A stretch of 64,000 nt of DNA, taken from the NCBI GenBank assembly GCA_034620365.1, contig JAQGEQ010000255.1, positions 62,001 through 126,000 of the forward strand, given 5' to 3'. The stretch comes from Pegea sp. RAD2-039. Its lineage: Eukaryota > Chordata > Thaliacea > Salpida > Salpidae. Below the pieces are notes generated by a model. The model saw only the letters and a list, made by a program, of their open reading frames with translations. It searched no databases and was not told the DNA's origin. Both the position numbers and the translations under genes were made by a program. Position 1 is the first letter of the stretch; every line of letters begins with the position of its first letter. Of the stretch, positions 9,669-50,090 are shown in pieces.

Positions 9669-10400
9669 TGCTTCGGCTGAGAACGGCCTTGCTGCTAGTT
9701 GTGCTCAAGAGGTGTTGTCAAAAACACAGTGAAATGCGAAAGAAGACTTTTTGGGGTTTCTTCCTTTTCTTTTATGTTCTTTTTTGCCCTTTGATTGTTT
9801 GCAAAGTAGAGAACTTCGATTTGCTGCAATATCTTCCCAGTTGCTGCTGGTATTGATGTTGAGCGATTTCATATCGCGCTTGTTGTGATCTTTAAGCAAC
9901 AACAAAGGCAGTCCTTCAGATCCGTCTGACTTCCTTCTAATGGACGTGTCCCAGTCAGCAACGCTTTTGCTTAGCATGCTGTACATTGTTGTCAGACCGT
10001 TTGCTGCCACCTTACACGTAATTAGACGAAAATGAAAAGTTTATTTGTGTTGGCCTTCCACAAAATCCATCAATATGATACATTAGGGTATTGATAGGAC
10101 ACATCCCTGTTTTACTCCGTTTTTGATGGTAAATGGTTCAGAGCAGCTTTTATCATACTGAACTGTTGCTTTAGTGTTTGTGTGAAATAATCATATAAAG
10201 ATACTTGGTAGACAGCTAATTTTCAACAGTATTGAGAACAGATCTTTTCTACAGACGCGGTCAAAAGCTCCGTCAATGAATGCGATATGCAAAGATCTGT
10301 ATAATTCTTTACATTTTTCTTTTAGTTGATACACAGCAAACGTTCTGATCTGAAAACACTTTGTGACTCGGGGTATATTCTTTTAGTCCATATTTGCAGA
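9669..10400 (-). mobile_element. Internally deleted non-LTR retrotransposon, copy 1
   Basis: Read on the minus strand, this is a LINE reverse-transcriptase relic. In order it keeps YPESQSVFRSER (the PESQxGFR region), QLKEKCKELYRSLHIAFID..AFDRV (RT motif with its aspartate), and FTIKNGVKQGCVLS. It then jumps, without the YxDD active-site region, to the carboxyl-terminal part (KRDMKSLNINTSSNWEDIAANRSS). Frameshifts and stops interrupt it. The 582-nt core (9669-10250) is almost identical to the plus-strand copy at 39176-39757, including the same internal deletion. This copy extends further toward the element's 5' side. The 3' limit is set by loss of similarity between copies at the gccgaagca phrase. 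Confidence 0.8.
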
Positions 10401-15166: not shown

Positions 15167-18002
15167 TTACAAATTACATCGGGACAAATAAGCTGACCAC
15201 GCGGCATCTCGAAACGATTTTGCGGCCGTTTTACGGTTGGTTGAGTGGATGATGCCTCGACCGACGATAATAATGTCGCTGCCTCGATTCAAGATCGCTT
15301 CTGTGGGAGTAATATACTGCTGCCCAAGATTATCACTACCAGGTTCCAGCTTAACACCTAAGTACAAAAAATTCAAGATTTCATATTCGATATTCAGATT
15401 GTTGATATAAAAGATGTTAGATTATGAAAAAGTTGAATTAGGAATTTCATTTGAAGATTTTAAGTTTATTTTACTTCAAATTTTCTCTTTATTTACCAAC
15501 CAATGAAAGGTTATAAATTTTAAAACAAGTTTTAGTAATCGGTCAATAAATTTAGAAAAAAAGGGACATAAATATGTGCTCCGCGCACTTGCTGGTCGTT
15601 CTCGACTCAACAGCAAGATTGTTTTATTACAAAGACTGTTTGGCGAGGAGTTTTTACAGGCCAAGGTGCTAAATCACTTCAACTATTTTTTGCTCAATTT
15701 TATTATAAAAAAACGATGTTAAAAATGTTGATTTATTTTCAAATAGTTTTAAGAAAAGTGAGTGTGAAGTTACCTGGAGTAAAATGAAGATGTGACGGGT
15801 TGTTAGAAACTTTAGAAGTAGAAATAAATCCACAAACAAAATCACTAAACTGCTCAGCCATTTGTACAGTTTGTTTTGTATATTCATCAGTAATCAAACA
15901 TCCCTTTGAATAATCATTTCAATTTGACACCAGCTGAAATTTAAGTTGTGGTACCTTAGGTGACATTTGTGCAATTAAAAGCAACCCAAGTTTTGAATTA
16001 GCCTCCTTAGCACCTGCCTGCAGCCCACTAATAACTCCAGGACCAGGTAATGAGTGAGCATTGATAATATCTGCCCAATCGGCTATATGATGAAGTCCAC
16101 CTGAAGATATATTCGATTAGGACATTTACAAACTGTATATCAAATCACAGGTATCAAGTGGATTTATTTGTTGTTAAACCACAAAAGTGTTACCTGATAA
16201 CTGAGTTTTTACGGTGTTTCCTATATCAGCAAACTTTCTGTCTTCAAAAACCACAAAGTTTAGTTTTTGGGCAATTGTTTGTAGCTTGACCATTATATCA
16301 AGATTAAAATGGCTCAGGGCGTCGGCGTGGGTTTTGATACAGCAAATATAAGGACCTACAAAGATTAAACATCTAAATAGAATATTCATCAACTAAATAC
16401 CAATTCACCGAGTGACTCCGCAAGTTCCAGTAACTCAAAAGCACTTTCTACATCAGCAGATAGACACAAGTTAGTTTTTTTTGCTTCAATTATGCTCATC
16501 AATCTAACAGTGACAGAATTTTTGGACATCTTAGCACGTTCAGCAAATGTTGTTGATGCTTGTTTGATTAGTGGGTAGATTTTTTCATCTTTATCAACTT
16601 GAGTGTTTTGAAAAATTGCTTTTCCAGTTATTGAGTTGTTTTTTGCAACTGAATTTGTTGAAAGAAATTTCTTCACCTGAAAACATCAACAGATTTAGAA
16701 TTTATTTTTTTTTTAAATCGAAGATTTCAACCTCTTCTGCAGTCACAGAGCAGATCTTATCCGCTTCTACCAACACATCCAACACTTGTGGTAATGTAAA
16801 AAGACTTTTTAGTTGAATGCCATCTTTTAATAGTTCATCTGAACCTGAATTAATAAAACATTTGAAAATCATTTAGAAAAAGTTTGATCTTCAACAGTTG
16901 AAAGAGTCTCTCACCTCCCTGATTTCTATCTAAGATCACGACTGCATCTGTGACTATGATCCCTTCATTTCTGAGGACTTGTGCAGTTTCTTTGACACTA
17001 GATCCTGTAGTAACCACGTCTTCTATAATCAGACAGTTCTGACCTAAAATTAATTCTTATTAAAGTTGAAGCAAGAGTGAATAAAAATGAAAAACTTTAA
17101 TTTATTAAATTTAAAAATTAGTTTTTACAACTGAAAATGTTTACCAATAAAATATTTAGATTATTATTTTAAAATTATATTTTAATAATAGCAATTAGTT
17201 TTATCAACAACTAATAGACAGCAAATAATCATCATATAACAAAACTTCAAATATTCAAACCTTTTTCAAAAACTCCTTCAACCATCTTTCTTGTGCCATA
17301 ATCTTTCATTTCTTTTCTACGTATTAGCATTGGCATATCTTCTTGGACTGATATACAGGTTGCAATAGGTAGAGCAGTATAAGGAACTCCACATAACTGG
17401 TCAAATGATTTGGTACCTTTGGAAACCTTCCATAATAAATTAGAGATCTCTTGTAATGTTGAAGGATAAGAAATAATAACCTTTAAATAAAAATAAATCT
17501 TTAAAATCTAGTTTACTCAGTGTTTGCTGAATAAAATATAGAATGTTTTAATATATAAACAACATATCTTATTATAATTTGTGTTTAACTTAATGCTTTC
17601 TAGCAGTTTAATTGATTTTTTATATAATTATTGTTAATGGATATTATATCGATTAAATTACATTATAATTATAAGCTTGAATAACAAAATCATTAACATC
17701 TAAAACATTAAAAAAGTATAATATATATCAAAATAATAAAAAATAAAATTGACATTAATACAATTATTAATATATAATTAAAACTAATAGCTAGTTACTG
17801 AATAAAATATATATTTTATTTAGATTACTAAACATACTAAAATACTATTTCATACAAAAATCATTAAAATATTTACTCTTAAATCTATATACACTGGTGA
17901 AATTATATTAGACTTTAGTTTAAACTCTCCAAACTTGATAGCTCCAATGTCAAATAGTTTCAAAATAAGTTTTGAATAGTCTTTTGCAGTATCTTTTGTC
18001 AT
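15167..18002 (-). CDS. UMPS: Uridine 5'-monophosphate synthase (OPRT-ODC fusion), nine exons
   Basis: This bifunctional enzyme converts orotate to OMP (OPRT) and then to UMP (ODC) in de novo pyrimidine synthesis in the cytosol. Exons on the minus strand: 17877-18002, 17261-17480, 16915-17043, 16732-16844, 16409-16676, 16194-16355, 15955-16100, 15774-15903, 15167-15357. All junctions are GT-AG and the frame is preserved throughout, giving 494 residues (human about 480). The OPRT half carries [23 protein letters not shown] and the PRPP-binding [11 protein letters not shown] (residues 121-131). The ODC half carries IKTHAD (Lys293) and [12 protein letters not shown] with the catalytic Asp324, Lys326 and Asp329, and ends with [12 protein letters not shown]. 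Introns range from 51 nt (15904-15954) to about 420 nt. An acceptor-like site (atttcag) ends 15 nt before the ATG, suggesting a 5' UTR intron or trans-splicing. Confidence 0.95.
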
Positions 18003-18017
18003 CTTATCCACTTAAAC

Positions 18018-19040
18018 CTGAAATTATCATTAAAAAATAAAAGGTTTTAATATTTTCAAAGCTACTAAAAATCTAACAAAATATTATCAAGAGTTTTTAT
18101 CAACAAAACAATTAATTTAATAAAATTATAAGAAAATTAATAAACTATTAATTGAAAATATAAAGAAATCTACAAGCTTGAAATAAATGATGATATAAAG
18201 TAATATATATTGAAGAAATTAAATTGAAGGTAAAATTATAAACTTATTTCAATTATTCTTAAATGCATTTATACAAAAATTATAATTTGGCATTGAAGTT
18301 AGTTAAATGTAATAATTATATTTTCAATAAAATAATTAGAAGCAGGTTGTGGAAAAATTTAATTATTCACACATAAACTAAATCTATTAATTAAACTTAA
18401 GTCTATCAAACATATAAAAAATCATAAATTATGCCAAATATAAATTTCATTTAATACGAAATATAAAAAATATAAACAAAGCAGACAATTTTAATTAAAA
18501 GTAATTAAAATACTAATTAATTAAAGGTATAAAATTAAAAAAATTAATTAAAGTTATAAAAATTAATCAAAACAGCAGTAGCAGTTATCATAACTTACTG
18601 TATAAAAAGTAAATCAAATTTTGTATCAAGATAAAAAAAGAATTTCAAAACTTTTTAACTTTATAAAGAAAAACCATTTTTTTAATTATTAGAAAATAAC
18701 AATTACCAGCTTAAATATCAGTATAAGTAGAAATACTAAAAGTATGGCCAATAAAAAGACAAATTATAAATAGTAAATGTGCATTAACTTAACGATTTAA
18801 TAGTAATTAAGATTAGGTAGCTGCAAACATGAACCTAAAACTTTTGAACTTGTACCTCGTGTTTAGTGGATTATACCTTCAACATTTAGGCCAGTATAAT
18901 TCTGGGTTGAAATGCATTTCACAGTAATAACTAAATAAAAGTTATTAAAACGATTTTAAAAGAATAAAAACATTATTATATTATTATAAATTTCATAATT
19001 TAAATAGCGTTCAGTTAATCTATCTATATTTAAAATGTTT
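18018..19040. other. AT-rich sequence upstream of UMPS, no gene seen
   Basis: Very AT-rich sequence holding the UMPS promoter region; no open frame or repeat is supported. Confidence 0.5.
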
Positions 19041-24911: not shown

Positions 24912-27900
24912 ATCTTACAAACTCCACTAATAGTCAACCAACTTCAAACTTGAAGTTTCAATTACTAACAGCTTGACTAATTGTTTCAATGTTTTCTTAT
25001 TACTTTGAAATCAATATTTTTATTTTATGACGTTTATGTGAAAGTTTTTGTGTTAAAACTGACCCACATACTATTGTACTTTTACCATTTGTATTTCCTT
25101 CAATATTTCCACGTTTTTACATACAAAGTCAAAACACACTCTTACTTTTTAACATCAATATGTAAGCATGAAACCATTCTATTACTTGACTAGCAGATTA
25201 TATATTTACTATACAGTCTGATCATAAGAGGTATTTGAAATCTCTAATCACTTGTTCCCAATATCTTAAGTTATCATCTACATCTTGCATGAGTTTGAAA
25301 TTTAGTATTTCATAATCGTTGCACGAATAAATACTTTAATATGATATAATTACGTGATGTAGAATTATTCTACAAAGAAATATAGAGATTAATGAATGAC
25401 TTTTCAATTAAAGAGTTTATTCAGTTATCACATGTTCTAAATAGACTAAAAAAGAAGATGAAAGTATATAAGACTTCGTCAATAGAATAATTCGAAATAA
25501 TTCAAAACAAATTGAGAGTATTGGTTCTTGTTTTACATTAATTAAAAAAATGTTATATGTTTTACTTTTATAAAAAAAATAAAGATATTTGATTTTCTAT
25601 TAAAAATTAGAACTATTGTTGTAATACAACATTTATTTTGAAGCAGTTACAAAGTTTTTCAACAAAAATAATTCTGTATAACTTCGAGTAAACTTTTTTG
25701 ATTTAAATATTTTCTAAATTCTAAAATAATTAAGAATTTGTTAAAAAATTTTGTCAAAACCTAAAAAAGGAAGAAAGTAACTAAATCACTTAAAAACAGA
25801 ATTGTTGATTTGTAATATAAAAACTGAATAAACTAAACACACTTATAAATATTTAAATTACAACTTTGCTTTTAGATAACATAATTTTAATCAATTTTTT
25901 AAACATTAGCAATTGTCTAGAAGATATTTCTAAAAATTAATAAGATAACAGATGAGTTGAATTTTTTCTTCGTTTTCATTTATCTTATCGCATTTATTGA
26001 AATAAATAAATAAAAGTTTATTGTTTTTCATGAATTATTTAGCTTATACTTTGCTAAAATCTGTTGTATGCTTTGTTCTGAAGCAAAATTATATTGTAAA
26101 TTATTTGGAGCATTACATAATCATTTTTATACTATTTAAGTTCATTGCTACAATAGAAGGTACTTTACAACTAACAGGTACATTTGCAGAAGAAGGTGAC
26201 TAGTTTACATTGTCTGGGCTAGGGCATAACCAAAGCAACTTTAGATAATAAATGAAAGTTTTAGATTATTACTTTTTTCTTGAAACTTTTTCTCAATTTG
26301 AGTAAAAAACTTTTGATTTTTCATTCTGCGTTTGAAATTTAGTTTAAAACATAAAATGGAAGTTCTTTTGACATTAAGTTGAGTTTAAAAATATTTTATG
26401 AAAGTTCATTGCTTTTAAAAGCATATTAATTTTCAGCACTATCTACTTCGACATTTTTATTCATAATTTGATGTTTGTTGTTAAGTTGATGTATTAGTTC
26501 CTCTTAAGTGGCTGTCACTAAATTTGTAGTTCTTTATATAGCATTTCAACCAGCTAAGCTAAATGCTTGAAACTAAAGTATATAGTACTTTGGTATATAA
26601 ACTTTGATTTAAGCATACAAAAGGAATGATTTTTCAACTATTAAATCATATATATATAATAACCATATAATATAATTGCTAATTAAGATATTGATAGTTT
26701 AAATATGGAAACTTTTATTTTCTAACCTGGGACCACAAAATTATAATAAAGATTTGCAACCATTTTGTTATTTACTAATGATTACTTCATAAAACTAAAA
26801 GAATTTTAAGAATTTAAAAACGCTTCATATGTAATATGAAAATATTTATCAGACTATCTGGCGAACTATAAGCGAGTTTGTTGTTGAAAATGATCAAAAC
26901 TATTAGTCTAATGAGTTAATTGGTATTTATATTACTGGATTTCTATGAAAATTTGAGCTTTAGTAATTTATGCAAAAATCCTATTTACATATTTTTTAAT
27001 GTTTAAAATTACATCTATTGATTTTTATTTATTTTTAAGTATTATCTTTGCTAATAACACAAACAAAATGCTTCTGTAAAATTGTAAACATAAAAAGATT
27101 CCTTTAAAACAAACCAATTTGTTTTTTATTTGTCTAAACAAAAGTATAAAATAGATATATTTTCAATTAAAACACTATTTTAATTCAACTTTGGTATCAA
27201 TGAACATAATATGCTGAAGGTATTTATTTCAATTAAATTATTTTTTACTAAACATATTAGTTGATCATAAAGAAAATAATCTAAAAAAGATTGGATTTTA
27301 TAAAATATTTTGATAAATAGTAATTTTAAATTTTTTCTAGGTAACGTGTTATCGTTTTCACATCATTGTTTATTTAGAAGATTTTCATTAAATATTGAAA
27401 TATGATCACATTTTACAATAAAAAACCATTTGGTTGAACTGGCAAAATTTGAAATGTTTTTATTCCTGTTAACATGTCAAGTTCTTTCTTGAAAAAATGT
27501 AATTTATTATTTTTATTTTTCTCTACGAAATAAAAATGCTTTTAAAAAACCACAATAAGTTTATTTCTAATGTTTAAATGGTTTTTATTTTTTGATGAAT
27601 ACTTATTTCCTTTTTTATTTTTGTTTAAAATTTTACAAGATCTGATGAGTTCTTTTATGACTATATAAATATTACTTTATAAATATTACTTTTATTATAA
27701 TTAATAATTTATAATATAACTTATTTTGCAGTTAACATCATACTGTTGAATTATTTCAACAAATACTCATCTCTTTTTCTACACTGTAGGAACACTAAAA
27801 ACTAGGATAGATTTAAAACATTTAATTTCCAAGTTTTTGTGGAGCATAAACAGTTTCCATAGAAACTTGATAAAACATCAGAAAAATAGATGAACCAAAA

Positions 27901-29234
27901 TTATTCATTATATTTGCTGGAGTTATCTATTCACTGTTACATGGCTTTAACTCTCATTGATAAACTTCAATTTTGTAAAATCGTTTAACAATTTTTCTTT
28001 TCAGTATCATCCAAAAATAATATAAACTTTACTTTTAATCAAGGAAGGTTTAGTATTTCAAAAACTAATAGATTCTAGTTAAAACCTTTTAAAACAAGTT
28101 ATAAATTATTTGATAATATAAAATAATTATAAGATGTTATGTAGTTGTAGTGATTTGTTTTGCTTTTATAATAAATAAGCGGCAAAATGTGCCAGCCTAA
28201 AAAAATTGCTTCTAACTACATGTACTAAGTTTTATTTTCAGATAAAATGGTAAAACTACAAATACCTGTAGTATATAACATTAATTTAAAAATAAATCAA
28301 AAATTAGTTAATATATGATAGAATAATTATCTAAAAATATTCAGAAATTACGCTTTAGCCGTTAGTAAAAAAAGCTTGATAGTATTTACCACATTTTGTA
28401 TTTTTGGTTTGTTTTAAGAACTGGCAAATAAAACTGTTTTAAAAATACAACTAAATTTTTTTAGTGTATATGTTTATGATTTTTGTTAAACTGAAAATGA
28501 TCTGAACTAGTTTTATGTAAGTTTGTACGAAATATATTGTAGTATTTTTTCACCACTTTGTTACAACAGACCTGATTTGCTTAATTCAATATTTAACCAG
28601 ATACTTAGAAACGATTCCAACTATGAAACTATTTCTTCTGCTTTCTGTAAATTCAAGTCAAAAGTGATTAATAGATCAATCATTTATGGATAAGACGAAC
28701 AATATAAAGTAAACAACTATTATCTATTTTATTTTGGTTAAGTTTAAGTGCTGCAAAACAATTCTCGAAAGCATTTGGGATGATGACGTTCTTTTAATCG
28801 ATTATAAATAACAATAAATTAAATTTTAATCGAGATTTTGTTGAAATTTTCCAAATAATAATGTAATTATCGGAATATTCATAAGAATATTTACACTAAA
28901 AAGAAACAAATTCAAATGTTAAAGCTGAAATTCAAAAAGTAATAAACAAACAAACTTTTACAACTTAAGAAATCACTTCGAAATTAAAGCAAAAGTTGAA
29001 AAGTAGATTTCGAAGCAAGAAAATTTCAAAAGTACAAAGGCATAAAACATTATGTACATAGAAAGACTTACTCTTCAAATGCAATTAACTGGGCCTTTCA
29101 TTTTCTCAAAAAATTGGCTTATTTTTACCTTATTGATTACAATTAAAACGAAAAGGCTTTAAAGATTAACTGGGAGTTGACCCATCTGTTAAATGTAATT
29201 TTTGCTTATGTATAGTTTCATTTACTTGAGATTT
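24912..29234. other. Long gene-poor AT-rich region
   Basis: About 4.3 kb between the FGF gene and the 3' end of the first receptor gene. Open frames such as 24981-25193 and 26021-26203 are short, hydrophobic and AT-driven, with no splice context or motif. Nothing else is supported. Confidence 0.5.
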
Positions 29235-31124
29235 TTATTTCTGAGTCCCAGTGATATTTGAACTCATAGGAATACTACAACTAGTAGTAGCAGTAATACC
29301 AGATTTTTGAGATTTAGATTCATTTTGAAACCGATTATTTCCATTTGTACGTGAAATTTTACGTAAGAGAGAAAAAAATCCTTTTCTAAACTCACGATTT
29401 TGAGCATTATAGATAATTATGTTCCCAATAGTATTGGACAACATAAAAGTAATTGCAACCTTTTCAACGATAAAATACTTATGTAGAAAAGAAAAATCAA
29501 CCTTTCTAGGTGTAGATAAAGCATTTAATGGTATAGATAGCTCAGCAATAAGCAAAATAAACATTGGCAAGATACTCACAGTAAATGCTCCAACCATTAT
29601 TAATAAATTTTTTGCCAATCGGACCTCCAAAGAGTTCTGTATGTTGCTTGTTTTAGCAACAAGTTTCTTTCCTTTTTTACTATGTTGAAGAGTTTTCCAA
29701 AAAGTCAAAATACTCAGAGTCCACATTAGTGGAATTGGCAAAGCAAAGCAAGTTATTAATACTAAGCTTGCAAAGCTTCCTTGCATGCTAGCAAGACCTC
29801 TGTTCTTACAGCGATAATATAAAGATGGTCCGACAACCACAGGTAACAGAGATACTATGAAAGCAATAAGCCAAACAATTGAAGCTAATCTAATTGATTT
29901 TTTTCTAGATTGTGTTTTGCGATATTTTAAAGGTTTTGAGATGGCATATAATCGGTCCCAAGCAGCAAGAATTAAAGTATAGACAGAAGCAAAGACAACA
30001 AGTGAAGAAAACATGCCAGATATATTTAGGTATGCAGAGTTGAATTTGTATGCCTTGTCAATCGTAGAAATTGTAATATTTTGTGTTTCACTTATCGGTA
30101 AGTTTATTTCATAGATATTTAGAAGTCGAAAAACTTGTTTGTATGTGTTGTAAAATATAGAAGGAAATACAAATAAAGATAAAATAACGTCTGATAAAGC
30201 TATCGAAGCTTTATAGATGAATTGTGTATGACGTAAACTTGGACTAAAATATATAACTGCCAACACAGAAATGTTAAGGATAGACCCTAATACAGAACCA
30301 ACAATTTCAAATACAAGTCCAAGAATAATTCCATTTTTGCATCTATTAAAATTGATTAAATTAAGTTGCATAAAAACATTAAGTGCTAAACTTATTTGTC
30401 TTAATTTAACACAAAAATAGTGTTGCTAATAATTTTTAGATTTTTTTATTTAAAAACTTAGTTGGCGTACTTACGTTGAATCAGCAAGTTCAAAGTACTC
30501 CACCGAAAGACTTTTATGGTCGCTGGCATTGAGTCCTCCCCACACAACTAAACAGCTATAATAGTTAAACTTCAAAATTTCGACAAAATTTTCCGGTTTA
30601 GAAATTTCTGATACGGCGACTTGTACACATGGATCTAATACTTCATTTTTACTTAATTCTGAAGTTTTAATCATCAAAACAGCATCTCTCCAGGATAGAG
30701 TCAAGTTCTTTTTGCTTCTCAAAACTGACTTCACTTTACTAAAGCATTTTTCTTCAAGTTTTGAGTGATTACAAAATGATAGATAAAGATTTTTACTGTA
30801 ATCATTCAACGCAAAAGTTTGGTACTGGCATTCTTTTTTCAGATTTTCAGAACAATTCCAAGACTTGAGTGTTTGAAAGTATCGTGAAAGATAAAAGTAA
30901 TCCTTTACCCATGAACATTCAAAAGTTTTAGTTAAATTGTTACAACACTCTTCTGATTGGCTGATTACTTGATCTTTAGGGACATATTGACATTTGATTG
31001 GCTGTGCACATTTTTCTTTAGTAAATAGATGAGCAATATTTGTTTGGTTATTAGTTTGAACGCTTGATGATATTAGTGAGTTGAATAGTATAAAAACAAT
31101 GAGCCAGGTAATTGAATAACCCAT
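29235..31124 (-). CDS. Class A GPCR with 12-cysteine ectodomain, copy A
   Basis: Two exons on the minus strand (30475-31124 and 29235-30342) join through a 132-nt GT-AG intron in phase 2, giving about 585 residues. Exon 1 encodes a signal peptide (residues 1 to about 20) and an extracellular domain with cysteines at 39, 45, 60, 61, 70, 91, 99, 118, 127, 166 and 191, plus one at 218 just after the junction. It has six Asn-X-Ser/Thr sequons. Exon 2 encodes seven hydrophobic helices. AAWDRLYAISKPLKYR stands at the end of helix 3 (a DRY-motif variant), SILPMFILL in helix 6 and NIIIYNAQNREFRKGF in helix 7/8 in place of NPxxY. The usual helix-3 cysteine is missing. Ligand unknown; G-protein coupling at the plasma membrane is inferred from class. 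The ectodomain family is not recognised. Confidence 0.85.
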
Positions 31125-34100
31125 AAATATCGTAATTCTTAAAGTATTATAAACTAAAACTTACAATTAAAGCAATTTTTATCTGAAATAAAACAGTTTT
31201 TAAACAACTTTTATGTTTGAGATTAATTACAACAAAGTACTTTCATTTCAAGTCATTAAAAAGAGAAGCAACATCATTAAGACTGAAATAAATGAGTCTG
31301 TTTTATTCAAAACACTAACTAAGTCATTTTAAAAGTAAAAACGTGTTAGAAGAAGTGATGATTTGATATCAATTTAGTTCAAAATTAAACCTTCAAATTG
31401 CTATTAAGATCGATCAACTAGAAATATCGAAACATATGCTAGCAAGCTTTGAAGCAGTTTCTGAGTAAACTAACCTTTTTAAAAAACTGAAGTTAACAAA
31501 CTGGCTCAACCATTAACAAAATAGCTGCCAAAACTATTCCAAACTATTCAGCTAAGTGTTTATTTATGTTCTTATATCTTAAATTATATAAATTAAACTT
31601 ACAAATAATTTATTTAGCCCCAGAAGTATGGGCACGTAGTCCCACTATCTTGTAGTTGTTTTGAGAGAAGCAAAGACTAAGGGTGTACCCCACAGAGAAT
31701 TTACAATCTGTTGACCTTGATGTCACTATTCAATGTCAAAGGGTCGTGTCGTCAACGAACAGAACTTAAAGTAATGATGGTTCAGCACACGCTATTCCTC
31801 ACTGTAATTAGCTAATGCTCAGGCAAGAAAATAGTATGACTGTCAGCATTCATTTACTTCTTCAGTTTTAGAATATAAATCAAAAAGTTTTTAAACTATT
31901 ATGAAAACGATTAACTTTCACAACACACTTAAATTTCAAAATACTTTTATATCTTAGCTTTCAAATGGAAATTAATTTAAATGAAACGCATTTTCATGAA
32001 GATTTGTTTTATTTTTACTATATCTTATTCAACAAATAGCTGCATGTGATAAATCATACAGTTCTTACAGCGAGCTAAAACAAAACAATATGAGCATAAA
32101 CACAATGAACTGGTCTTAAGTACCACAATGTAGCCTAATTAATATAGAAAGAATAGAAAAACTGCAAAGTGTAAAAGTAAAATATAAATTAAAAATCAAC
32201 GATTTATTACAAATCCGTAAAGAAAATGAATATACTGGTAGCATTAAAAGGCATTTGTTAACAAAATTACTTTAATCTTAATTCTTAACAACATTTTAAA
32301 GGAGGTGATAGATTCAATTTCATTTTGAAAAACTCTGTTGTAGAAGATAATGTGATGAGTTTTTTAATCAATTAAATTTGTGGTCGTACTATAAACGCTT
32401 CAACAAAAACATTTTGAATAGTTTTTGCTAAGAAAATTGTTCTTTAAATATCCATCACCTCATTATCTTAAAGTAGGGCTTGAACTGTTTTCGTATCTAC
32501 TCTATAACAACTTGCTTGCTCTATTATTATCGACAATAAATTATTCAAATTTTTTTTCGTTCTAATTTCTCGGTGTGCATCACATAAAAACCAACTTAAA
32601 CTTTATTTTAAAAGCTGAAATATATCAACTGTAATAATAATTAATAACTTTATTACCAATTACTAGAATCTTTGTACCAATTACTGAAATTATCTTAAGA
32701 TACAAATTTGTTACAATAAAAGTTAAAACATAAAAGTAATCTTAATTCATAAATTAAGTCTTATTAAATTAAGTGACAATTACTTTTTAATGCTACCTGT
32801 TTAATGAACTTTGATCTATTTAGAAAGCTCTATTATTTCCGATCTAATTAATTTAATAAACGCCTACAATTACGTATATCCGTTGTTAAGACTTTCTCTT
32901 GATAAATTTTGGAATGGCTCAAAGCTTTTAAAAGTAAAGTCTTGATTAGTTGTCGAAACTAGTTGCAACATTAAAACTTTCACTTATCATTAATAGTGTT
33001 AGATATATCTACGGTAATATTTATTAAAATACGTAATTGACCAATACTAAATTTAAGCATAAAAATCTTGAACTGAATTTTTGTTTTTTACTTCTAACTA
33101 CTTCTTAACTGTCATCAGGCTAGTTATTTTGTGGTTTAGAAAACTATAAAAACTTCCTTAAAATAATTACAAATTATATTATCTAATAAAGTTAAATTTT
33201 AATGTTTAATTTAAATAAAATTGTGTCATTGTAGATTACTAATCAAATAAATCGAAGTAGTTGCCGTTTTTTTAAAGGTAAAATTGCTCACAAATACAAA
33301 TTTTGGATTAAACCTGAAACTTAAAACAAAGTACTTAATACAAATTGTATTTTAACCAATTTAGTTCAAAATACAAAAAAGTTTTAAATTTTGTTTACAA
33401 TAAATTTTAATCAACAATCTTAAAGTAATCTAAAATTCAATTAAAATTAAAAACCTTTATAATAGCCGAAAACCGAAAAGTTTTTGTTAATAATAAGAAT
33501 TTAACAATTTAGGTTATCTGAAACATTTTAATTTTAGATTTTACTGGACTTCTATACTCACATTTTTTGATAGAAAGAACATTTTGAATCGTCAAAACTT
33601 ATAAATTGTAAATAAGTTCAAACAATATTTATCGTATAAATCAAAACAAAAAATAATTTCAAAAGTTTTATTTAAAAAAAGGCCTTTTGAAATTTGTAAT
33701 TATTTATATACACCCTTCCTTATTACAACTACCTAGCACTAAAAATAGTTTATGCTAAATACGATCAAAAGTTAAATTAAAAAAATGTGTTGTTAATTTG
33801 TTGAATGTTGATAATGTTAAATAGAAATAACAGCTATATCTAAAAGAAAGTAAAAATTGATTTTTTGAGTAATTAAATGGTAGATAATTTAAGATGAATA
33901 TTTGCGTTTAGATTAATTTTATTTTATTCAAATATACTTGAAAAAAACAACAGTTAGTTATTAAAAATAACTTTAATAAAATACTAATTATTGTTTTTTT
34001 AATTGTGTAATAATTACATATAAGTTAAATTAGTTTTAGAATTTGGATAGCTGTTTTATTATTAAAGTACAATTTGTTGAATATTGTCACTAAAGTGTAA

Positions 34101-34928
34101 CCATCAAGCTACAAAATAATTACTGTAAATGATGTCTTATCAAAGGTTTTTTGATCTGTGAACACGACAAACAGTTTAAAGCAAAAGTTTGTCCTTTTGA
34201 TTTTTTAATTTGTTGAGCTTTTTGTATAACACAAGAATTTTTTATGCTATATTGGCATCTGTTTTACAGAGAAATCTTAGTTGTTAAGAATATTATTTTT
34301 ATGTTTGCTACATGAAGTATAAAACAAAGCTTTATGATTAAGTAAACACATTGAAAAAGCAATCAACTTATAAAAATGTTAGTTTCTAAAATCTTTTAAA
34401 CCTGTCTTCGTTGATCATTCATTATCAAATGAGGCAACACTGTGTTCAGTTTTCTACTTTATAACTTTATTTTTGAAAAGCTGAAACCTCTTAAACAAAA
34501 ATGTTATCAATCAAGAATATTCTATGAAAATTATATTCAATCTTGAATATCTATAGTTAACATTTTAAGAAAAGTTAAAACTACTAACTACCTGCTGTTA
34601 AACTTTGGTATAGTTAAAGGCAACTTTATATCTAAGTTTTTATGAGTGAACTAAATAATTTCTATTTGCAAAAAAACAAAATATCAATCCTCAAAATTAT
34701 AATCAATTTGTATATCACAATACCTCATTATAAGTGGACAAAAACACAAGTATTTGAAGAGTATTTTGTAATTTACAACAGATAAATACAGAAAATCAAG
34801 GCTGTAGAAGCATTCTTAGTTAACTTTTAAGTCTAAATAATATATATATACATATAACAAAATATTATGTAAATAAAATATTCTTTAAACACGATTTTCT
34901 TGGAAACAGCGATATTGGGAAAAATCGA
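31125..34928. other. Intergenic DNA between the two receptor genes
   Basis: AT-rich spacer. A patch of different composition at about 31.6-31.8 kb includes a diverged dispersed-repeat copy. No exon or open frame is supported, and I found no leftover receptor exon here. Confidence 0.45.
31690..31790 (-). repeat. Diverged dispersed repeat, copy 2
   Basis: The reverse complement of this stretch aligns loosely with 5511-5600 and shares ggtcaacagattgta. The family is unknown and the boundaries are not visible. Confidence 0.35.
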
Positions 34929-36768
34929 TTATAGTTCTGATGTCGTGGTTGCGATTGATTTCTTTTTCTTAATACTATATTTATCTCGAATTTTTTTGTG
35001 ATAAGAAGTACAACCAAACTTTAAAGCAATTTTTGAAATCATGATAATAAAAGCTTTTCTGAACTGAGGGTTTCTTGCGCTATAAATAAAAAAATTCCAC
35101 ATGGTGTTTAACAACAATAAAATCTTACATATCTGTTCTGCTACAATGTATTTCCCAAAATAATCAAAATCAAAACTACGTGGAACTCTTAAGCCATTAA
35201 ATGGTGTAAACATATCGACAATAAAAAGAATAAAAAGAGGAAGAATGCTTATAGTAAAAGCTCCAACCATCAAAAGCAATGTTTTTGCCAAACGAAGCTC
35301 TACAGAAGTTACAGAGTTATTAGTGTTTGATCGAATTGATTTTGCTTTTTTACTAAACTTGTAAGTTCTCCAGAACGTCAAAAAACTAATTACCCACATG
35401 GCTGGAATAGGTAAAAAAGCAAAAACACCCAATAATAAAGAAGCATATCTACCACGGATAGATACTATGGCTTTAGACTTACCCTCATAATATAAATAAG
35501 GCTCGCAAAATATTGGTATAATTGAAACAATCAAAGCTACAAGCCAAGCCAAAGCAGAAAGTCTTACTGCAACTAGCCTACCATTTAATTTACGATATTT
35601 CAAAGGACTTGAGATTGCAAATAATCTATCCCAAGCTGCTATCACCATAGTATAGATAGAAACAAAAATAACAGTCAAAGTAAATACACCAAAAGCATTC
35701 ATGTAAGTCTTATTAAACATTATTGGTTCATCAGCAAATTGTAATGTTATGTTATTTTTTTGACTTGTTTTAAAAGTTGAATTATGAATGTTTAAAGGCC
35801 AATTAACTTGCTGAAAAACGTTATTTATCATTGAAGGAAATATCAAACATGACATCATTAAATCTGATACAGCAATTGAAAATCGGTAAATGAATTGTGC
35901 ATGGCGTAAGGTCGGTGTTATGAATATTACTGCAACTACACATGCGTTTAATATCAAACTTATTATATCAATCAAGAAAAGAAATGCAATGTAGCCTCTA
36001 AGTGAAGATTTGCAACTGAAAAAAAAATTATCAAATTTATTTTTGTTAGAGAGACTTTGCTTATTTACTAGTTGTTTAAATTTTCAGCTTAGTTGTAAAA
36101 TGTGATAAATATATTCACCTTTCTGACAATAAATCCATTATTTTGAACTCATAATTTTCTATAGTTTCTGAATTAAATCCCTTCCAGCCTATGAGACACG
36201 TAACAAAATTTATTTTCAAAAATTCGACAAAATTTTCCGGTTTAGAAATTTCTGATATGGCGACTTGTACACATGGATCTAATACTTCATTTTTACTTAA
36301 TTCTGAAGTTTTAATCATCGAAACAGCATCTCTCCAGGATAGAGTCAAGTTCTTTTTGCTTCTCAAAACTGACTTCACTTTACTAAAGCATTTTTCTTTA
36401 AGTTTTGAGTGATTACAAAATGACAGATAAAGATTTTTACTGTAATCATTCAACGCAAAAGTTTGGTACTGGCATTCTTTTTTCAAATTTTCAGAACAAT
36501 TCCAAGACTTGAGTGTTTGAAAGTATCGAAAAAGATAATTGTGATCTAAGGCCCATGAACATTCAAAAGTTTTAGTTAAATTGTTACAGCACTCTTCTGA
36601 TTGGCTGATTACTTGATCTTTAGGGACATATTGACATTTGATTGGCTGTGCACATTTATCTTCAGTAAATAGATGAACAATATTTGTTTGGTTATTAGTT
36701 TGAATGCTTGATGATATTGATGAGTTGAATAGTATAAAAACAATGAGCCAAGTAATTGAATAACCCAT
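34929..36768 (-). CDS. Class A GPCR with 12-cysteine ectodomain, copy B
   Basis: Tandem paralogue of copy A with the same structure: exon 1 36119-36768 (650 nt, identical in length to copy A), a 103-nt intron, and exon 2 34929-36015, phase 2, about 578 residues. The signal peptide and all twelve cysteine positions are conserved. Residues 1-186 differ from copy A at only 14 positions, whereas residues 187-217 and the whole 7TM exon differ widely (by eye under half identical). The 7TM part has AAWDRLFAISSPLKYR, SILPLFILFIVD and NFFIYSARNPQFRKAF. Neither the helix-3 cysteine nor an extracellular-loop-2 partner is present. An acceptor-like aatacag lies 26 nt before the ATG. Function is expected to be peptide, amine or other small-ligand sensing, with no basis to choose. 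Confidence 0.85.
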
Positions 36769-37613
36769 GAATATCGTTATATGTATTAATTTATCTGTAT
36801 TAAAATGAATTTTAACATGTTAATTATCGAAGAATTATCAAAATATATAATTTTTTACGACCACTTAAGATAAACTACTTTAATGTCCAGGCTTTTTAAA
36901 AAGATTTAATTTAAATAAAACGCATTATTATGACCAATACCCTATTAAGTTCGCATAAGTTAAATAATATACAACTTACAAAAATAATATGGTTCTTGAA
37001 AATAGTTTAAAAAAAAGTTCTCAAGATATGGCTTGCATATTATGACCTTACAAAAAGTTCTAGCAGAAAATTGTTCGGTAAAATTCTTTTAAATTTGTTT
37101 TAGTTCTTATAATAAAAGAAGATTATCGTTTCTTGAAAAACTGTCGAAGCCTTATCAGAAGTTAAAAAATCTTTTAAAAATTTGATTTGCTTAAAACACT
37201 AAAAATAAAGTATTAATGAGATAAAATTCAATTAGTAATAAACTAACCACAATTAACTAGTAAAATCAAAGCTAAATCTATAAAATTGATAAAAAATTGA
37301 AAAAAAATCTAAAAAAGGTTGAAAAAACATACTTTCCAACTGTATGTATCTAAATAATAAAATATTTTGCCATGAAATAATATAACTAAGTTAATAAAAT
37401 TTGTCTTAGCCAGCACTAAACAAATAAATTTATTATTTACTGTTACATTTTTATTCAATAAAATATTACAACAAAAGAAAACTGAAAACATTTCATGCTG
37501 CTTGAAACTAATCTATACACAAGTATCAACATTTTAAGATCTGATAGTTTTTGTAACTTAGGCAAGTATGACTACGAGAAGAACAAGAGAAAAGTTATAT
37601 AAAAGTTGACTAA

Positions 37614-37701
37614 ACTTTCAAAAGTTTTCAGTTAAATTGTCAAGGCACTCTTCTGATTGGCTAACTAAATTTCCAGGAACATATTGACATTTGATTGGTC
37701 A
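37614..37701 (-). pseudogene. Relic of a third receptor ectodomain exon
   Basis: On the minus strand this segment reads PIKCQYVPGNLVSQSEEC followed by LDNLTENF and a stop. That matches residues 42-68 of both receptor ectodomains (PIKCQYVPKDQVISQSEEC), with one codon deleted, the second Cys of the CC pair lost, and a TGA soon after. Flanking sequence on both sides has decayed beyond recognition. It sits about 0.85 kb upstream of copy B, as expected for an older third member of the tandem array. Confidence 0.75.
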
Positions 37702-37709
37702 TGATTATT

Positions 37710-38520
37710 CTCAGAGAATATCTAGGTAACTGTATAAAACTGCATGAACTGAAAGCATAGATAAATAAAAAAAATCTTCTATAAATAACATCTAATAAAT
37801 AGTCTAAAGAATTTAAATTGAAGTTTTACTAATTTTCATTTTAAAGAAGATTTATGAAAACTTGATAAATTCAAATTATGTCTTTCACCTTTAATTAGAA
37901 ATTCTTCTTTCAATTAAATATATTTTGAAATAAAACAACATCATATAAGTCCAAACTTGTGATCTGCATCATACACCTATTTCTCATGTAACTTGTATTT
38001 CATGTGGGCGATAAAAGTACCTTCTCAAAAAACTAACTTTTTTCTAATTCCTTAAATATCTCCTAAATCAGTTTATTGTAATTAATTAGTTTGATGAATC
38101 ATAGATAAAAGAAAGCAAATAATAGTTGTGTCAGTAACTTCCTGTTAGCTAGCTATGAAGTTTACTTCAATAGATTACTAGCTGAATGAATTCATGTTTG
38201 CTCTATCATAACTGCTATTAAAGGCTGTTGTCAATTAATTTACAGCTGATCAATTATTAAAAGTTAATTTCATTTGCATCAAGTAGCTAAATATCAATTT
38301 TTGTATTTTGATTGAAGTTTTTTTTATGGAAACAAAAAATACGTTCGAACTGTCCTACATTAAAAATAGAAAAATATTTGAAACATACATCTATAATTTT
38401 GTAATTTGTATATGTACAAAAGTCGCTTCTCTATTAAGGGGTTGGGATTTTCTACCAATCACCAAAAGATAAAGAATGTAACTAAAAATTATGATGGTGG
38501 CATCTTAATATGAAATCAAA
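37710..38520. other. Intergenic DNA, no gene seen
   Basis: AT-rich spacer between the receptor relic and the 3' end of the RBM26/27 gene; nothing is supported. Confidence 0.5.
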
Positions 38521-38525
38521 TAACA

Positions 38526-41500
38526 TTAAAGAAGATCCAAAGCATCTTCTTCTGTGAGAAGAACTTCTTCATCCATAATGTTATCATAAATAAAGTCATC
38601 TTCAGCAGCTGATTGAGTTGGAGAGATATTATAGATATCATCTTCCTGAGATTTAAGCAGCTTTGAAGCTTCACTTTCACTTAGAGATTGGTGGGAACCA
38701 TTACTATCAGATTTAGGTGAATGAGAATCAGAAGGTGGTTTTTGGGGGTTACTGATGGTGTCCGGAGCAGATACTGCTGCCTGCGTGTATATGAAGTAGT
38801 TAAGAAAGATGTGGATATGATTAGAGACTCACTTGTTGAAGGTTAGGTTTGTTTTCGTGAACCCAAATTATTGTCAAAGTTCGTTTTTTAAACTCTTTGC
38901 CGTGAGCTAATGCCTGCAAAAATATTGAAGTCAGTTTTGGAAAGCTTCAATAAGTAAATAAGGACCTGTTCAGCCCAGCAGCGGGAATTATATCTCATGC
39001 TGACAGCGGTATCGTTGTTATGGAAGGTAGCGTCTTCTGTCTCACCAAATTGCTGTAAAAATATTCAAGAATGTTAAAATTTGATGTTTTTTTAAAGTTT
39101 TTTTTAGAAATCTTAGAATTTATACCAACATATCATGTCTGTTAAAAAAGAAAAACTTTCAATTAATTATCATATAAAGATCTGTTCTCAATACTGTTGA
39201 AAATTAGCTGTCTACCAAGTATCTTTATGTGATTATTTCACACAAACACTAAAGCAACAGTTCAGTATGATAAAAGCTGCTCTGAACCATTTACCATCAA
39301 AAACGGAGTAAAACAGGGATGTGTCCTATCAATACCCTAATGTATCATATTGATGGATTTTGTGGAAGGCCAACACACAAATAAACTTTTCATTTTCGTC
39401 TAATTACGTGTAAGGTGGCAGCAAACGGTCTGACAACAATGTACAGCATGCTAAGCAAAAGCGTTGCTGACTGGGACACGTCCATTAGAAGGAAGTCAGA
39501 CGGATCTGAAGGACTGCCTTTGTTGTTGCTTAAAGATCACAACAAGCGCGATATGAAATCGCTCAACATCAATACCAGCAGCAACTGGGAAGATATTGCA
39601 GCAAATCGAAGTTCTCTACTTTGCAAACAATCAAAGGGCAAAGAAGAACATCAAAGAAAAGGAAGAAACCCCAAAAAGTCTTCTTTCGCATTTCACTGTG
39701 TTTTTGACAACACCTCTTGAGCACAACTAGCAGCAAGGCCGTTCTCAGCCGAAGCAAGACACATTTTTATCAACTTTCTCACCTTAAAATGTTCGAGAAT
39801 TTCCGCTTTTTCATCAGCACTGAAATTTGATACTTTAATTCGACAAGTTCGTCGATCAATGTTAGCACCAGATTGATAAAAACGATACGAGTTGCTGCCT
39901 CGTCCTCTGCCGGGATTTCTTCCTCGACCCCTGGCAGGACGTGAAAAACCGCCCCGATGTTTATTGGTGGATACGTTCTTGCATTTAGCCTGATACATCA
40001 AAGTTAGATGGTTCTTAGGGGGAGGGGGGAGGGTTATACCTTCAATCGATCAACCTTTTGTTTCAAGTTTTTGTAGCTTTCGCCAGACTCGTTGGTAGAT
40101 TCAGCATTATATAAATCAAGTTCAGAGTCGAGGAGATCTTTTCTGGTCTAAAAAAGAAGTGAGATTGAAGATGAGTAAGTGATTGGGAACAAGATTACTT
40201 GTAGGGAGCGCTTCGCGTGGTCGACTTTCGATTTTGATTCACAAATCTTTCGAGTTTGAGATATTGAAGCTTCTAAGACGGATAATTTCTACAAAATAAA
40301 TAAATGATGAAAAGATGATGGGTGATTAGTGAGTAGACAAACATCTTGTAGTTGTGTTTTTTCTTCTTCACCTATATCAGGATTCATTTTGAGTTTTTCG
40401 GTGATCGCCTACAAAATAGAAACAATTTAGCAAACAACTTTATCAGCAGACATCTTCTCTTACTCTTTGAGCCTTTAGTTGTTGAATGAGAAGATTTTTA
40501 CTCTGCTTCTGGAGAGCTTCTTGTCTTTTCTGCATCTCGATATTTTTTTCATTCAATGCTTTTTGTGCTTCAATCTCCTGAAAGTTAATATTTGAGATTT
40601 GAGGATGTAAAGATCAACTAAATCTAGATTGTAACAACTCCTTAAATCTTTGGAAGATGAAATTGTTAATTCCTCGGAAATTAAATTCATAAAAATTAAA
40701 TATTTTTTATCAACAGCCGGAATTTGACTTTAGATTTTTCTTAAAGGAGCAAAAGTAGTAATTTTAGGTTTAGTTGTTTTATAAACACAAATTTGATGAC
40801 TAAAGTTTGTAAATAAGAAAAGTTCTTCCTATCCAAATTCATTTAGGATCTTCTAGGAGCTACTAGCATCTTACAAAGTATCTATTTTGAATCCTACATA
40901 AGTAGAAAGTCACTTTCTTTAAAAGTCTTTTAAAAATTGATAGAGGTTTTTAATTTGGTAAAAAAAACCACAAAATTTAAATACTAGTTGATTTGAAGAG
41001 GTCCTGATAGAGGTTAGGACCGGGGAAGAAGCTTCAGAAGTCTTCTAATGATGAAGATCATCATTGATCAACCAACTTACTTTAATTGTAGCTTCGTTTT
41101 GCTTCTGCAGTTCCACAAATCGTTTCTGGATCGCCTCTCTAGTTTCTACTTCTGTCACTGCAGGGGCCGAGGGCTTATTTTCAGTAGCAGTAGTGGCTGG
41201 TGGTGGTGGCGGAGAAGTTTTCTGGTCAATTAGAAAATCAGTTGTATTTCATGAGAAAATATTTCGTTACTAATTAGCAAATAGTTGGAAGATCTCAACT
41301 TAATCTAAGAGTTTGGGGATTAAACAAACTAACCGGATTACTCTCAACTTCAGGAGCAACATATTTCAGATCTTTAGGTCTTGGTATCACTCCAATTCGA
41401 TCTTTGACAGAAGCCTATAAAAAAGTTGATTAATAATTTCAAATGAGATAATTTGGGTGATTCAAAACCTTAAAATCAGGGTTCCTGTTGTTGAATGAGG

Positions 41501-47385: not shown

Positions 47386-47789
47386 GCTTTAAAGATTGTG
47401 AAGGTCTTTTCAAAAAACGGAAGTGCAAAATAACCACTGGACCCACATCATCCTTATTCAACCTCTCTTCGCACAAAATTATTAATACTATGCTTCCAGC
47501 CCAAGATAACAGTACACAGAAGCCTACCACCAAATCTTACAAGTGTCAAAAAGACAATTTTTCTATTGTTCAAAAAAGCTGAATTGTTATAATATCGCCA
47601 ACATTGCCATTTCTAAACTGTGAATTTTTCGCTTTTACAATACTATGATTCAGTGCAATTCTTCATTGTCATATGCTTTTTCGTTTACACGTCAAATAGA
47701 TCTAATTTGTGAGAATGTGTGTTAGCGAGAGATGCTCTCTTTAGGCACCCTCCTTCACATTTATTGTAATAAATAAATAAATGATTACA

Positions 47790-50090
47790 TTCTTATCAGA
47801 TGCTTGCCCTAAAACAATTTTCAAAAAATTATTAAACTTTTATTTGAATTTGTTGGTATAAACGTAAATAAATAGTAAGATAGAATGTAAATCTTATCGA
47901 ATTTTAAAAAAAATTAAAGCAGGAAATAGAGGTGTAATTTAATAAGTCTGGTTTAATGCTCAACCATTGGCTGGTATAATATTTGTATCACGACTTCTTA
48001 TAAATATATTTCAATTACTTAAAGACTTTATTGATAAAATAAAATTTGCTGAGTAAGCTTATCTCATTTGCATTCAGTCTGTAGCAAATCATTCAGAATG
48101 TATATAAAAGACAACAGTTGAATGAAAATTAAAGAAATAAAAGTCTGCTTTACAAATTCTGCTTTTTTACTGATTTCATTCAACTTCCCCACTAACTAGT
48201 TTTGACAACTTTTTATAACTTACAAGTTTATTCAGACCACTTGACTCATTCGCCTTAGTTATTATTATTTTTATTGTAACTGGTATTTATGTAGCAAAAA
48301 CAAATTATATATCCAATATATCTTTCTCAACTTGTTTTCCTTATTCTTTAAAAAAAAGATCGTTTGAAATTTAATTAAAATTTCTTATTTAGTAGGCTAG
48401 TGCTTCAATCTTATAAAGAAAGGAATTATTAAGAAGTACTACCAGACAGAAACTTTTACAAATACAAACTAGCAAATAAAGAATCACCCTTATTCAAATC
48501 ATTGAGACAAGTTTGACCACCTTGCTTAACTAAATGGGAATTTATAAAAAAATATAAATTGAAAAAAATAATAGTAAGTAAGTTGTCAAAAGCTCCTGCA
48601 AAAGTTGAGTTAGAGTTTGTGTTCGGATTATGTTTTTAACTTTAAAATCAACTAGCTTTGCACTGATATAAAGTTTTCTTTAATTAAACAGATTTTTCTG
48701 ATGACTTATTTCGGCTGAGAACGGTCATGCTGTAAGCTATGACAGAAATTGTGGATATCTAATTGCTGCCCTTGCAGCAGAATTTCACTATCTACTCCAA
48801 CAAGGTTATGTAACGGAACAGACGGACTGATGCAGCTGCGCCCAGCTGGCATCATAGAAGCTGCCAGAACGACACTGAGTGAGAAACTGCCTACGTGGCT
48901 CCAAATTTGACTTTAAATTCAGAGTTTTGCCTCTCCTAGAAGTGTTGCCATAAAATAGACTAAAATGGTTTTTCTACTCGGGGTTTGTATGAACTTTTTC
49001 TTGTCGCAATTATGTATCCGCCTCAACTCAACTCTGTGAATTTCTTCATGACTTTATTTTATAAACATAGTTTACAGTTTTAATTTTTTTATGAAGACTT
49101 AAATAAAAAAATTGTAGCTTAATAATGATTCAGTAACCTTAATAGACATTTTAGTAGTAGTGATAAATATTTTAATATCTAAACTTAGAGTAGAGAGTTT
49201 TAGAAAAACCTAACTCTTTCTATATACATTGTCTAGTTTTTTTTGCTATAAACTGAAAAATGCAGATAGTGATAGATTCAAAAACGTTTTTATTTTATTA
49301 TTTGTGCAGTAGTTTTAAACTCTAACTTATTTGAAATACTATTTTGTAAAGAGCATAGCACTAGTTGACTAATAAAAGACGTCTTCTAAGTCGACCGTTA
49401 AGCAAAAAAACATTTGTCAGTAGAACAAGATGGGCCGAAGAGTTCAGCAGGTCAAAGTACTAAAGTGTCCTTTATGGATTTTAATAAAATTTCGGCCGAT
49501 CACGTCTATGTGCTTTATGCGAGATTCAAATTAATGATTGTTCTTACAACTTAGTAAGACCTCACCTTTTATAACAAAAATAGCTAATGGTAAACAAAGA
49601 AATATAAAGCAAACATTCTCTATATATAAATTATTAAGTAAAGCATTTAAAATAATAAAAAATAAATTAATTATTTTGTAGAACAATTTGTAGTTAAATA
49701 TTTACCTTTTTATTTGTTTAAGTTAAACATTTTTGACAAGTATAAACACTGCAAATGATTTGGTGAGTTCAAAGATATGTTTTAGTGTAAGATAGGTGTA
49801 GTAAACAGAACAACTATTGTACATAAGTACAGGTTAAAGAGCTTGATTGAAAAAAACTTAAGCATCGAACTGATATAAACAACTTCTGTGTTCGTTGTAT
49901 AAAGAATTAAATATTGTTACTTGTACTATTACCTACTTTTTTATTAAATCTAATAAAATATGGATGACCCTAATCTTACTTTTAGCAAACTTTGTAAGGT
50001 TTTGATGTTTGATGAAAGTTTACTAATTTCGGCTAATGTGCTTTAAAAGCTATTAAGAAATTAAGGATAAACAAATGTTGTTTATTTCAG
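47790..50090. other. Intergenic DNA with a small LINE-like patch at 48.7 kb
   Basis: AT-rich except for about 48700-48960, which is clearly richer and shares the phrase ttcggctgagaacgg with the end of the deleted LINE copies. No exon or open frame is supported elsewhere. Confidence 0.45.
48705..48960 (+). repeat. Fragment related to the end of the deleted LINE family
   Basis: The segment opens with ttcggctgagaacggtcatgctg, matching ttcggctgagaacggccttgctg at 9671 in the first LINE copy and the reverse complement near 39740. The following 200 nt are richer in G and C than the surroundings but are not shared with those copies. It may be a longer or different 3' region of the same family. Confidence 0.4.

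Follow-up and report, generated by a model that had tools for sequence, protein, structure and literature searches.

We analysed a window of 64,000 nucleotides, i.e. bases 62001-126000 of contig C58 in an assembly of 105.7 Mb and 387 contigs. Its GC content is ~28% by base counts and its gene content points to an animal source. A ribosomal L14 gene is also encoded in the window. No Rfam family reached its gathering score there, and COX1 (PF00115) had no match anywhere in the assembly. Two receptor genes lie in tandem on the minus strand, B first and A second. Gene A occupies positions 29235-31124, with exon 1 at 31124-30475 and exon 2 at 30342-29235; gene B occupies positions 34929-36768, with exon 1 at 36768-36119 and exon 2 at 36015-34929. 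Both exon 1s are 650 nt long, as an earlier sequence-only reading of the window had claimed. The reading frames are intact, encoding 585 residues in A and 578 in B, and the introns, GT..AG in both genes, measure 132 bp in A (30343-30474) and 103 bp in B (36016-36118). Each protein has a hydrophobic N-terminus and an ectodomain with 11 cysteines and six possible N-glycosylation sites.

Receptor class and ectodomain

The Pfam model 7tm_1 matched exon 2 of both genes, with 82.0 bits in A (scanned as the open frame 29235-30425) and 78.2 bits in B against a cut-off of 30.5. Alignment of the 7TM regions of eight of the ten family members described below (G1 and G3 were left out) revealed that the Asp-Arg pair at the end of TM3 (D157 R158) is invariant in all eight. 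Class A GPCRs carry the motif NPxxY in TM7 and a TM3-ECL2 cysteine pair. In the eight members N335 and Y339 are invariant and the proline is absent (NIIIY, NFFIY, NYFIY), and their 7TM alignment contains no invariant cysteine. Comparison of the 7TM profile with solved structures gave adrenergic, adenosine and other small-ligand receptors as the best-scoring matches (best 60 of 624), which say little for a distant class A profile. The ectodomains of A and B had no Pfam match above the cut-off; weak matches among eight ectodomains, to DUF2606 in two (best E 0.026) and to Tox-PLDMTX in one (E 0.0028), were taken as chance. A PDB profile search of the ectodomain returned nothing convincing (best of three matches, E 0.13), and the AlphaFold model built on the alignment of the A and B ectodomains had a mean pLDDT of 55.6 and was set aside. 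We infer that A and B encode intact orphan class A GPCRs whose N-terminus is signal-like and whose N-domain is rich in cysteines and glycosylatable.

Divergence of A and B within and beyond exon 1

Comparison of the two exon 1s revealed that bases 1-554 are 96% identical and that the identity stops sharply at base 554. The mismatches number 82, with 24 in bases 1-554 and 58 in the 96 bases from 555 to 650. A change-point fit was best at base 554 (log-likelihood -163.3 vs -246.4 for a single rate), i.e. at codon ~185, in agreement with the abrupt loss of identity that the sequence-only reading had placed near codon 187. Its count of 14 protein differences in residues 1-186 needs a small correction: the number holds for residues 1-185, the count for residues 1-186 being 15, and a further 23 differences fall in residues 187-216. 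The 7TM exons are identical at 160 of 369 aligned residues, less than half, as had been estimated by eye.

Between A and B, dS was 0.064 over codons 1-184 (6.7 of 108 sites), whereas in exon 2 it reached the saturated value of 1.53 (158 of 242 sites), a contrast of ~24-fold (Fisher p = 4e-27). Purifying selection alone, acting after a uniform duplication, could be thought to have kept the ectodomains alike, and the ectodomain is indeed conserved at some positions, with 20 invariant columns across eight family members. The synonymous contrast argues against this, as does the noncoding 5' flank that A has in common with two further copies of the gene, C1 and C2 (see below); we regard the explanation as negligible, and the comparison of synonymous divergence by exon rules out purifying selection acting alone. 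The earlier claim that uniform duplication is insufficient and that sequence must have been exchanged between loci is borne out by the dS contrast together with the change point.

Further copies in the genome

A genome search with the ectodomain exon recovered two more loci, C1 and C2, with 95-96% DNA identity and located ~510 kb apart on contig C21. It also returned a short piece of the exon located upstream of B and, on contig C12, a distant relative, D. Protein searches added further diverged members on contigs C209 and C103 and three on C23. The family comprises at least ten genes with both ectodomain and 7TM. B, C1 and C2 are ~97% alike across exon 1, intron and exon 2. Exon 1 of B (36119-36768) matches those of C1 and C2 over its full length, the intron is near-identical in the three genes, and the protein encoded by exon 2 of B (34929-36015) is identical to that of C1 at 355 of 382 residues and to that of C2 at 340 of 367. 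The ectodomain, intron and 7TM body of B are thus of the type found in C1 and C2, hereafter C-type.

Among A, B, C1 and C2, only A has a different 7TM, which is identical to that of D at 148 of 369 residues. Bases 1-554 of its exon 1 (30571-31124) are 95-96% identical to B, C1 and C2, and the exon-1 tail has 7 of 31 residues in common with B and 9 of 31 with D. A tree of the ectodomain (144 columns, residues 45-185 of A) placed A in one group with B, C1 and C2 (95/99). The 7TM tree united the latter three (100/100) and left A and D beyond this group as long branches; the program issued a long-branch warning for this tree. The end branch of A measured 0.014 within the B/C group in the ectodomain tree vs 0.86 outside it in the 7TM tree. 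A search with the tail, 7TM and 3' side of A (27000-30570) found no close second copy, the sole other match listed being 67% to C1.

Upstream regions of A and B

The sequence-only reading had noted that the 5' flanks of A and B match for about 15 nt. A short match was indeed seen, extending 12 nt above the ATG, but it is short because the upstream region of B, not that of A, departs from C1 and C2. B matches C1 and C2 from -9 to the stop codon and departs from them upstream of -9. A matches them from codon ~185 across the start codon and onward through ~3.7 kb of 5' flank (31125-34826, minus strand), with indels and one dispersed repeat inside, so that the tract acquired by A measures ~4.2 kb. 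Blocks of the flank are mostly 90-96% identical, with one 156-bp block at 77%; against C2, one unbroken block of 2671 bp (92.5%) begins at codon ~185, crosses the ATG and reaches 2.1 kb into the flank. Of the 3702 bases of the flank, 3308 fall in blocks that are 90% or more identical to C1 or C2 (2699 for C1, 2707 for C2), and a looser alignment takes the match to about 34847. Among the matches listed for the A flank (46, with 40 of 201 candidates scored), the dispersed repeat aside, only C1 and C2 were found elsewhere.

The 5' flank of B (36778-39100, minus strand, taken from the -9 boundary to the end of the query) is unrelated to the upstream module of A, C1 and C2 and is probably the resident upstream region. 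A search with it found no second copy and, besides the shared bases adjacent to the ATG, only a decayed ectodomain-exon fragment matched exon 1. This fragment (37613-37698, minus strand, about codons 42-68) has a broken frame with stops inside and is identical at 75 of 85 aligned bases to B and at 41 of 54 to D; the 900-bp stretch around it scored 187 vs 144-152 for the best five of 200 single-base shuffles.

Gene A is near certain to be a chimera

Together, the comparisons make it near certain that gene A is a chimera of recent origin. The C-type lineage (C1, C2 and the body of B) evidently contributed the 5' flank and the first ~185 codons. An older, distinct lineage, which we call A0, supplied the ectodomain tail, the intron and the 7TM. 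The acquired tract does not include the final 96 nt of exon 1, and the last ~31 codons of the ectodomain (exon-1 bases 555-650; 30475-30570) stay with the old class A 7TM body of A (exon 2, 29235-30342, the splice junction being read from the DNA). The position of this break rules out exact exon shuffling or exact exon replacement, and the retained introns rule out retroposition. The exchange had been described as confined to the ligand-facing exon. This part of the sequence-only reading has to be given up, the tract of A taking in the 5' flank and ending before the exon does. A conversion restricted to a single exon would leave recipient sequence on both sides, and the 5' side of A is C-type over 3.7 kb.

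Misjoins are a risk where near-identical copies lie 510 kb apart on a single contig and again on a second one, and an assembly artefact might have joined a C-type copy to the 7TM of A or repeated one exon 1. However, the C-type part of A is a fourth distinct sequence, with 12 private sites among the 563 bases from -9 to 554 and 67 odd-one-out sites among 1955 of the flank, and the reading frame stays open through the join as far as a valid splice site. We consider an artefact of either kind very improbable; a misassembly merely repeating one exon 1 is unlikely because A has private substitutions in both exon 1 and flank.

Order of the C-type blocks

Alignment to C1, in the coordinates of a joined 29.9-kb stretch, placed window positions 30571-34826 (front of exon 1 and upstream region, in four main pieces) at 14704-18807 and positions 34945-36777 (nearly the whole gene) at 13434-15266. 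The match to C2 on the upstream side ends at window position 34406. The C-type blocks stand in swapped order compared with C1 and C2, are joined at ~34827-34928 and overlap only in exon 1. We thus read the stretch 30571-36777 as a C-type unit in permuted order, set within a resident receptor gene. The new junction (34827-34928), where the coding end of B meets the distal end of the C-type 5' flank, contains ~80-100 bp of unmatched DNA; positions 34826-34940 used as query matched only themselves.

The final coding bases of B differ from those of C1 and C2. A resemblance of the last codons of B to those of A was considered and dropped, A reading ACT ACT AGT where B reads ACG ACA TCA. In C1 and C2 a dispersed repeat stands directly after the stop codon, masking the original 3' flank, and the idea that their ends coincide tellingly with the window junction was dropped since the stop-codon end adjoins this repeat.

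A possible route of recombination

The tail and 7TM of A and the 5' flank of B have no close second copy while the C-type module is found elsewhere, and we therefore read them as the two ends of A0. A C-type unit comprising 5' flank, exon 1 and exon 2, present as a circle or as a head-to-tail tandem with its coding end joined to the far 5' flank, would have recombined with the resident A0 gene through exon 1, and repair would have copied the C-type exon 1 onto both sides. The outcome would be B, with the upstream region of A0 and a C-type receptor, and A, with a C-type upstream region and a C-type ectodomain on the 7TM of A0. The full explanation, a chimera formed by entry of a C-type unit into A0, seems to us moderately probable; for the route itself, a circular or tandem C-type copy recombining through exon 1, we see about an even chance.

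The A flank and the B body separated from the C lineage at roughly equal relative times. Over 1955 sites of the flank, the odd one out was A at 67, C1 at 43 and C2 at 37; over 1235 sites of the body it was B at 22, C1 at 12 and C2 at 16 (ratio test, p = 0.87). For the flank, a site counted only if each of the three pairs was more than 80% identical in the surrounding 50 columns, which removed poorly aligned parts. Four sites in exon 1 join A and B against C1 and C2.

Several points weigh against this route, among them the differing final bases of B and the masked 3' flanks of C1 and C2 noted above and the uneven private sites and mosaic patterns described below. Its direction, from C to the window or from the window to C, is not fixed by any outgroup; it does not account for the 80-100 bp at the junction; and a tandem duplication with two later breaks yields the same picture. 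In an ordinary stepwise history, a C-type tandem duplicate would have arisen upstream of A0, a deletion by unequal crossing-over between exon 1 of the second copy and exon 1 of A0 would have fused the two, and B would later have lost its C-type upstream region through an unrelated rearrangement. The junction at 34827-34928 resembles a head-to-tail join, and the decayed fragment upstream of B suggests an earlier extra copy at the locus. We nevertheless judge this history rather unlikely, for it needs three breaks, two of them landing at both edges of the exon 1 homology. The decayed fragment might be the lost exon 1 of A0; its sequence is nearer to the C-type exon than to D.

Later exchange among the four exon 1s

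Over the 563 bases from -9 to 554, A has 12 private sites and B has one (p = 0.003). Had both exon 1s been copied at once in a single step, this imbalance would not be expected unless conversion followed or A changed faster. Ten sites at which A is identical to C1 and B to C2 lie within 23 bp (CDS 218-240) and nowhere else in the 563 bp compared, and a cluster as dense was obtained in 1 of 20000 simulations. This dimorphic patch, located on the minus strand at 30885-30907 in A (the version of A and C1) and at 36529-36551 in B (the version of B and C2), alters five residues (VKDYFYLS vs ALDHNYLF). Sites 370 and 511 have the pattern A=C2, B=C1. Together with these two sites, the patch means that exon 1 was also shaped by short tracts exchanged later between the four copies, or else by allelic variation of old standing.

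Short later exchanges, which do seem to occur, would also fit a history in which the window came first. The tandem of A and B would then be old, its members differing in upstream region and 7TM while gene conversion homogenised exon 1, much as the sequence-only reading had proposed, and the stretch between the two exon 1s would have left as a circle or as the product of an unequal crossover and seeded C1 and C2. The structure of C1 and C2, the upstream region of A with the 7TM of B, follows directly, and the junction needs no filler. However, a separate event must homogenise only the stretch from -9 to base 554 between genes otherwise saturated in dS, exon 1 of the C copies has no switch from A-like to B-like, and none of the 12 private sites of A is present in C1 or C2. 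We thus hold this order of events to be unlikely and prefer entry of a C-type unit into A0.

Ligand-facing and signalling parts

With loop topology assigned by eye, ICL1 and ICL2 of A and B are alike at 18 of 28 positions vs 30 of 83 in the extracellular loops (p = 0.015). The comparison of A with D gave a similar result, with 16 of 28 vs 25 of 81. Elsewhere, identity between A and B was 13 of 29 in ICL3, 7 of 20 in TM7, 7 of 17 in helix 8 and 6 of 29 in the C-tail. The sequence-only reading had suggested that one ectodomain on two signalling bodies would let a single ligand trigger two outputs. That the putative G-protein-facing loops are the better conserved ones between A and B gives no reason to expect different G proteins, although ICL3 and the tail could confer different regulation. 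The two receptors probably bind similar ligands. Expression of A is predicted to follow that of C1 and C2 and expression of B to differ, a firmer prediction than that of a signalling difference.

Discussion

Exchange of ectodomains between receptor paralogues is of a kind already known. The immunoglobulin-family paired receptors CD300A and CD300C are described as having an exchanged ectodomain and different signalling parts (PMC12447643), and ectodomain exchange is reported to shape the N-domains of CEACAMs (PMC8860441; see also PMC5112662). As these reports present them, both cases resemble A and B in carrying near-identical ligand-facing domains (here the 14 differences in residues 1-185) on paralogues that differ elsewhere, and in exchange between loci. 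They differ in that the receptors belong to immunoglobulin families and conversion was found in several lineages, whereas A and B are class A GPCRs of a single genome, with ~3.7 kb of upstream DNA included in the exchange. In TLR1 and TLR6, a C-terminal-ward region of 300 residues (the last leucine-rich repeats, the transmembrane part and most of the TIR) is described as homogenised in nine species while the N-terminus diverged (PMC2077338). These too are neighbouring receptor genes of which one part was homogenised while another diverged, the parts being roughly reversed in comparison with A and B.

Segmental duplications through circular intermediates are reported to change block order from A-B/C-D to B-A/D-C, with breakpoints that have only microhomology and short indels (PMC7450558). 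A swapped block order is found in the window too, where a head-to-tail tandem would look identical. Unlike the microhomology breakpoints of that account, the ends in the window overlap in a homologous exon over 563 bp and two chimeric genes result; this overlap suggests homologous integration. Rearrangements that join the front and upstream region of one gene to the back of another are described as a source of chimeric genes (e.g. PMC6776367); in gene A, by comparison, donor and recipient are members of one family, joined in frame at a homologous site. In a literature search for ectodomain conversion in a GPCR pair we recognised no matching case among the best-ranked papers, which does not prove that none is in print. 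As far as these searches went, a class A GPCR chimera that includes upstream DNA is a new instance.

A broader and quite speculative possibility is that this GPCR family spreads and is shuffled as circular units, with upstream region, ectodomain and 7TM as separate modules. A and B would then form a GPCR pair that shares one ectodomain and differs in both 7TM body and upstream region, and the 23-bp cassette would still be exchanged between unlinked copies.

An apparent ectodomain-only conversion in a tandem pair can thus be a larger recombination that carries upstream DNA, once other copies in the genome are compared. The four genes amount to a natural GPCR domain swap, in which one ectodomain is found on two diverged 7TM bodies (A vs B, C1 and C2) and one 7TM body under two upstream regions (B vs C1 and C2). 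Comparison of the four would separate the contributions of ectodomain, 7TM and upstream region.

A dimorphic patch in the ectodomain exon and the surroundings of the receptor genes

Comparison of the ectodomain exons of the neighbouring class A GPCR genes A and B with those of C1 and C2, two further near-copies of the B-type receptor on another contig, revealed a 23-bp dimorphic patch (30885-30907 in A and 36529-36551 in B). The patch exists in two versions that differ at 10 bases, changing five residues, and these versions cross contigs, such that A carries the version of C1 and B that of C2. Upstream of B, 845 bp 5' of its start codon, we found a decayed fragment of an ectodomain exon (37613-37698), probably the relic of an earlier receptor copy at the A/B locus.

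Both A and B lie within a 29-kb stretch enclosed by the arms of a 584-bp inverted repeat (9666-10247 and 39176-39759; 99% identical). Among the 55 matches listed to this repeat (40 of 331 candidates scored), only the two arms are near-identical and full-length, the others being partial with identities of 67-92%. The window also carries a direct repeat (2062-2287 and 47567-47790; 96% identical) that is part of a dispersed element, and the same element breaks the 5' flank of C1.

Repeats and frame at the 3' ends of C1 and C2

At the 3' ends of C1 and C2, a dispersed repeat (positions 3223-3406 of L007, the stretch with C1, and the corresponding part of L008, the stretch with C2) is inserted beside the stop codons, at most about 20 bp away; 14 additional copies were aligned, and the repeat was not seen at B. 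Exon 2 of C2 loses the C-terminal frame of B and C1 near position 3454 of L008, adjoining a run of A; this break in frame is either genuine or an error of sequencing.

Distant members of the receptor family

A distant member of the A/B/C family is present at three loci on contig C23 (L029, L030 and L031) in near-identical form; of their 164-residue ectodomain frames two are identical and the third differs by 2 residues. We therefore concluded that recent duplication is recurrent in this receptor family.
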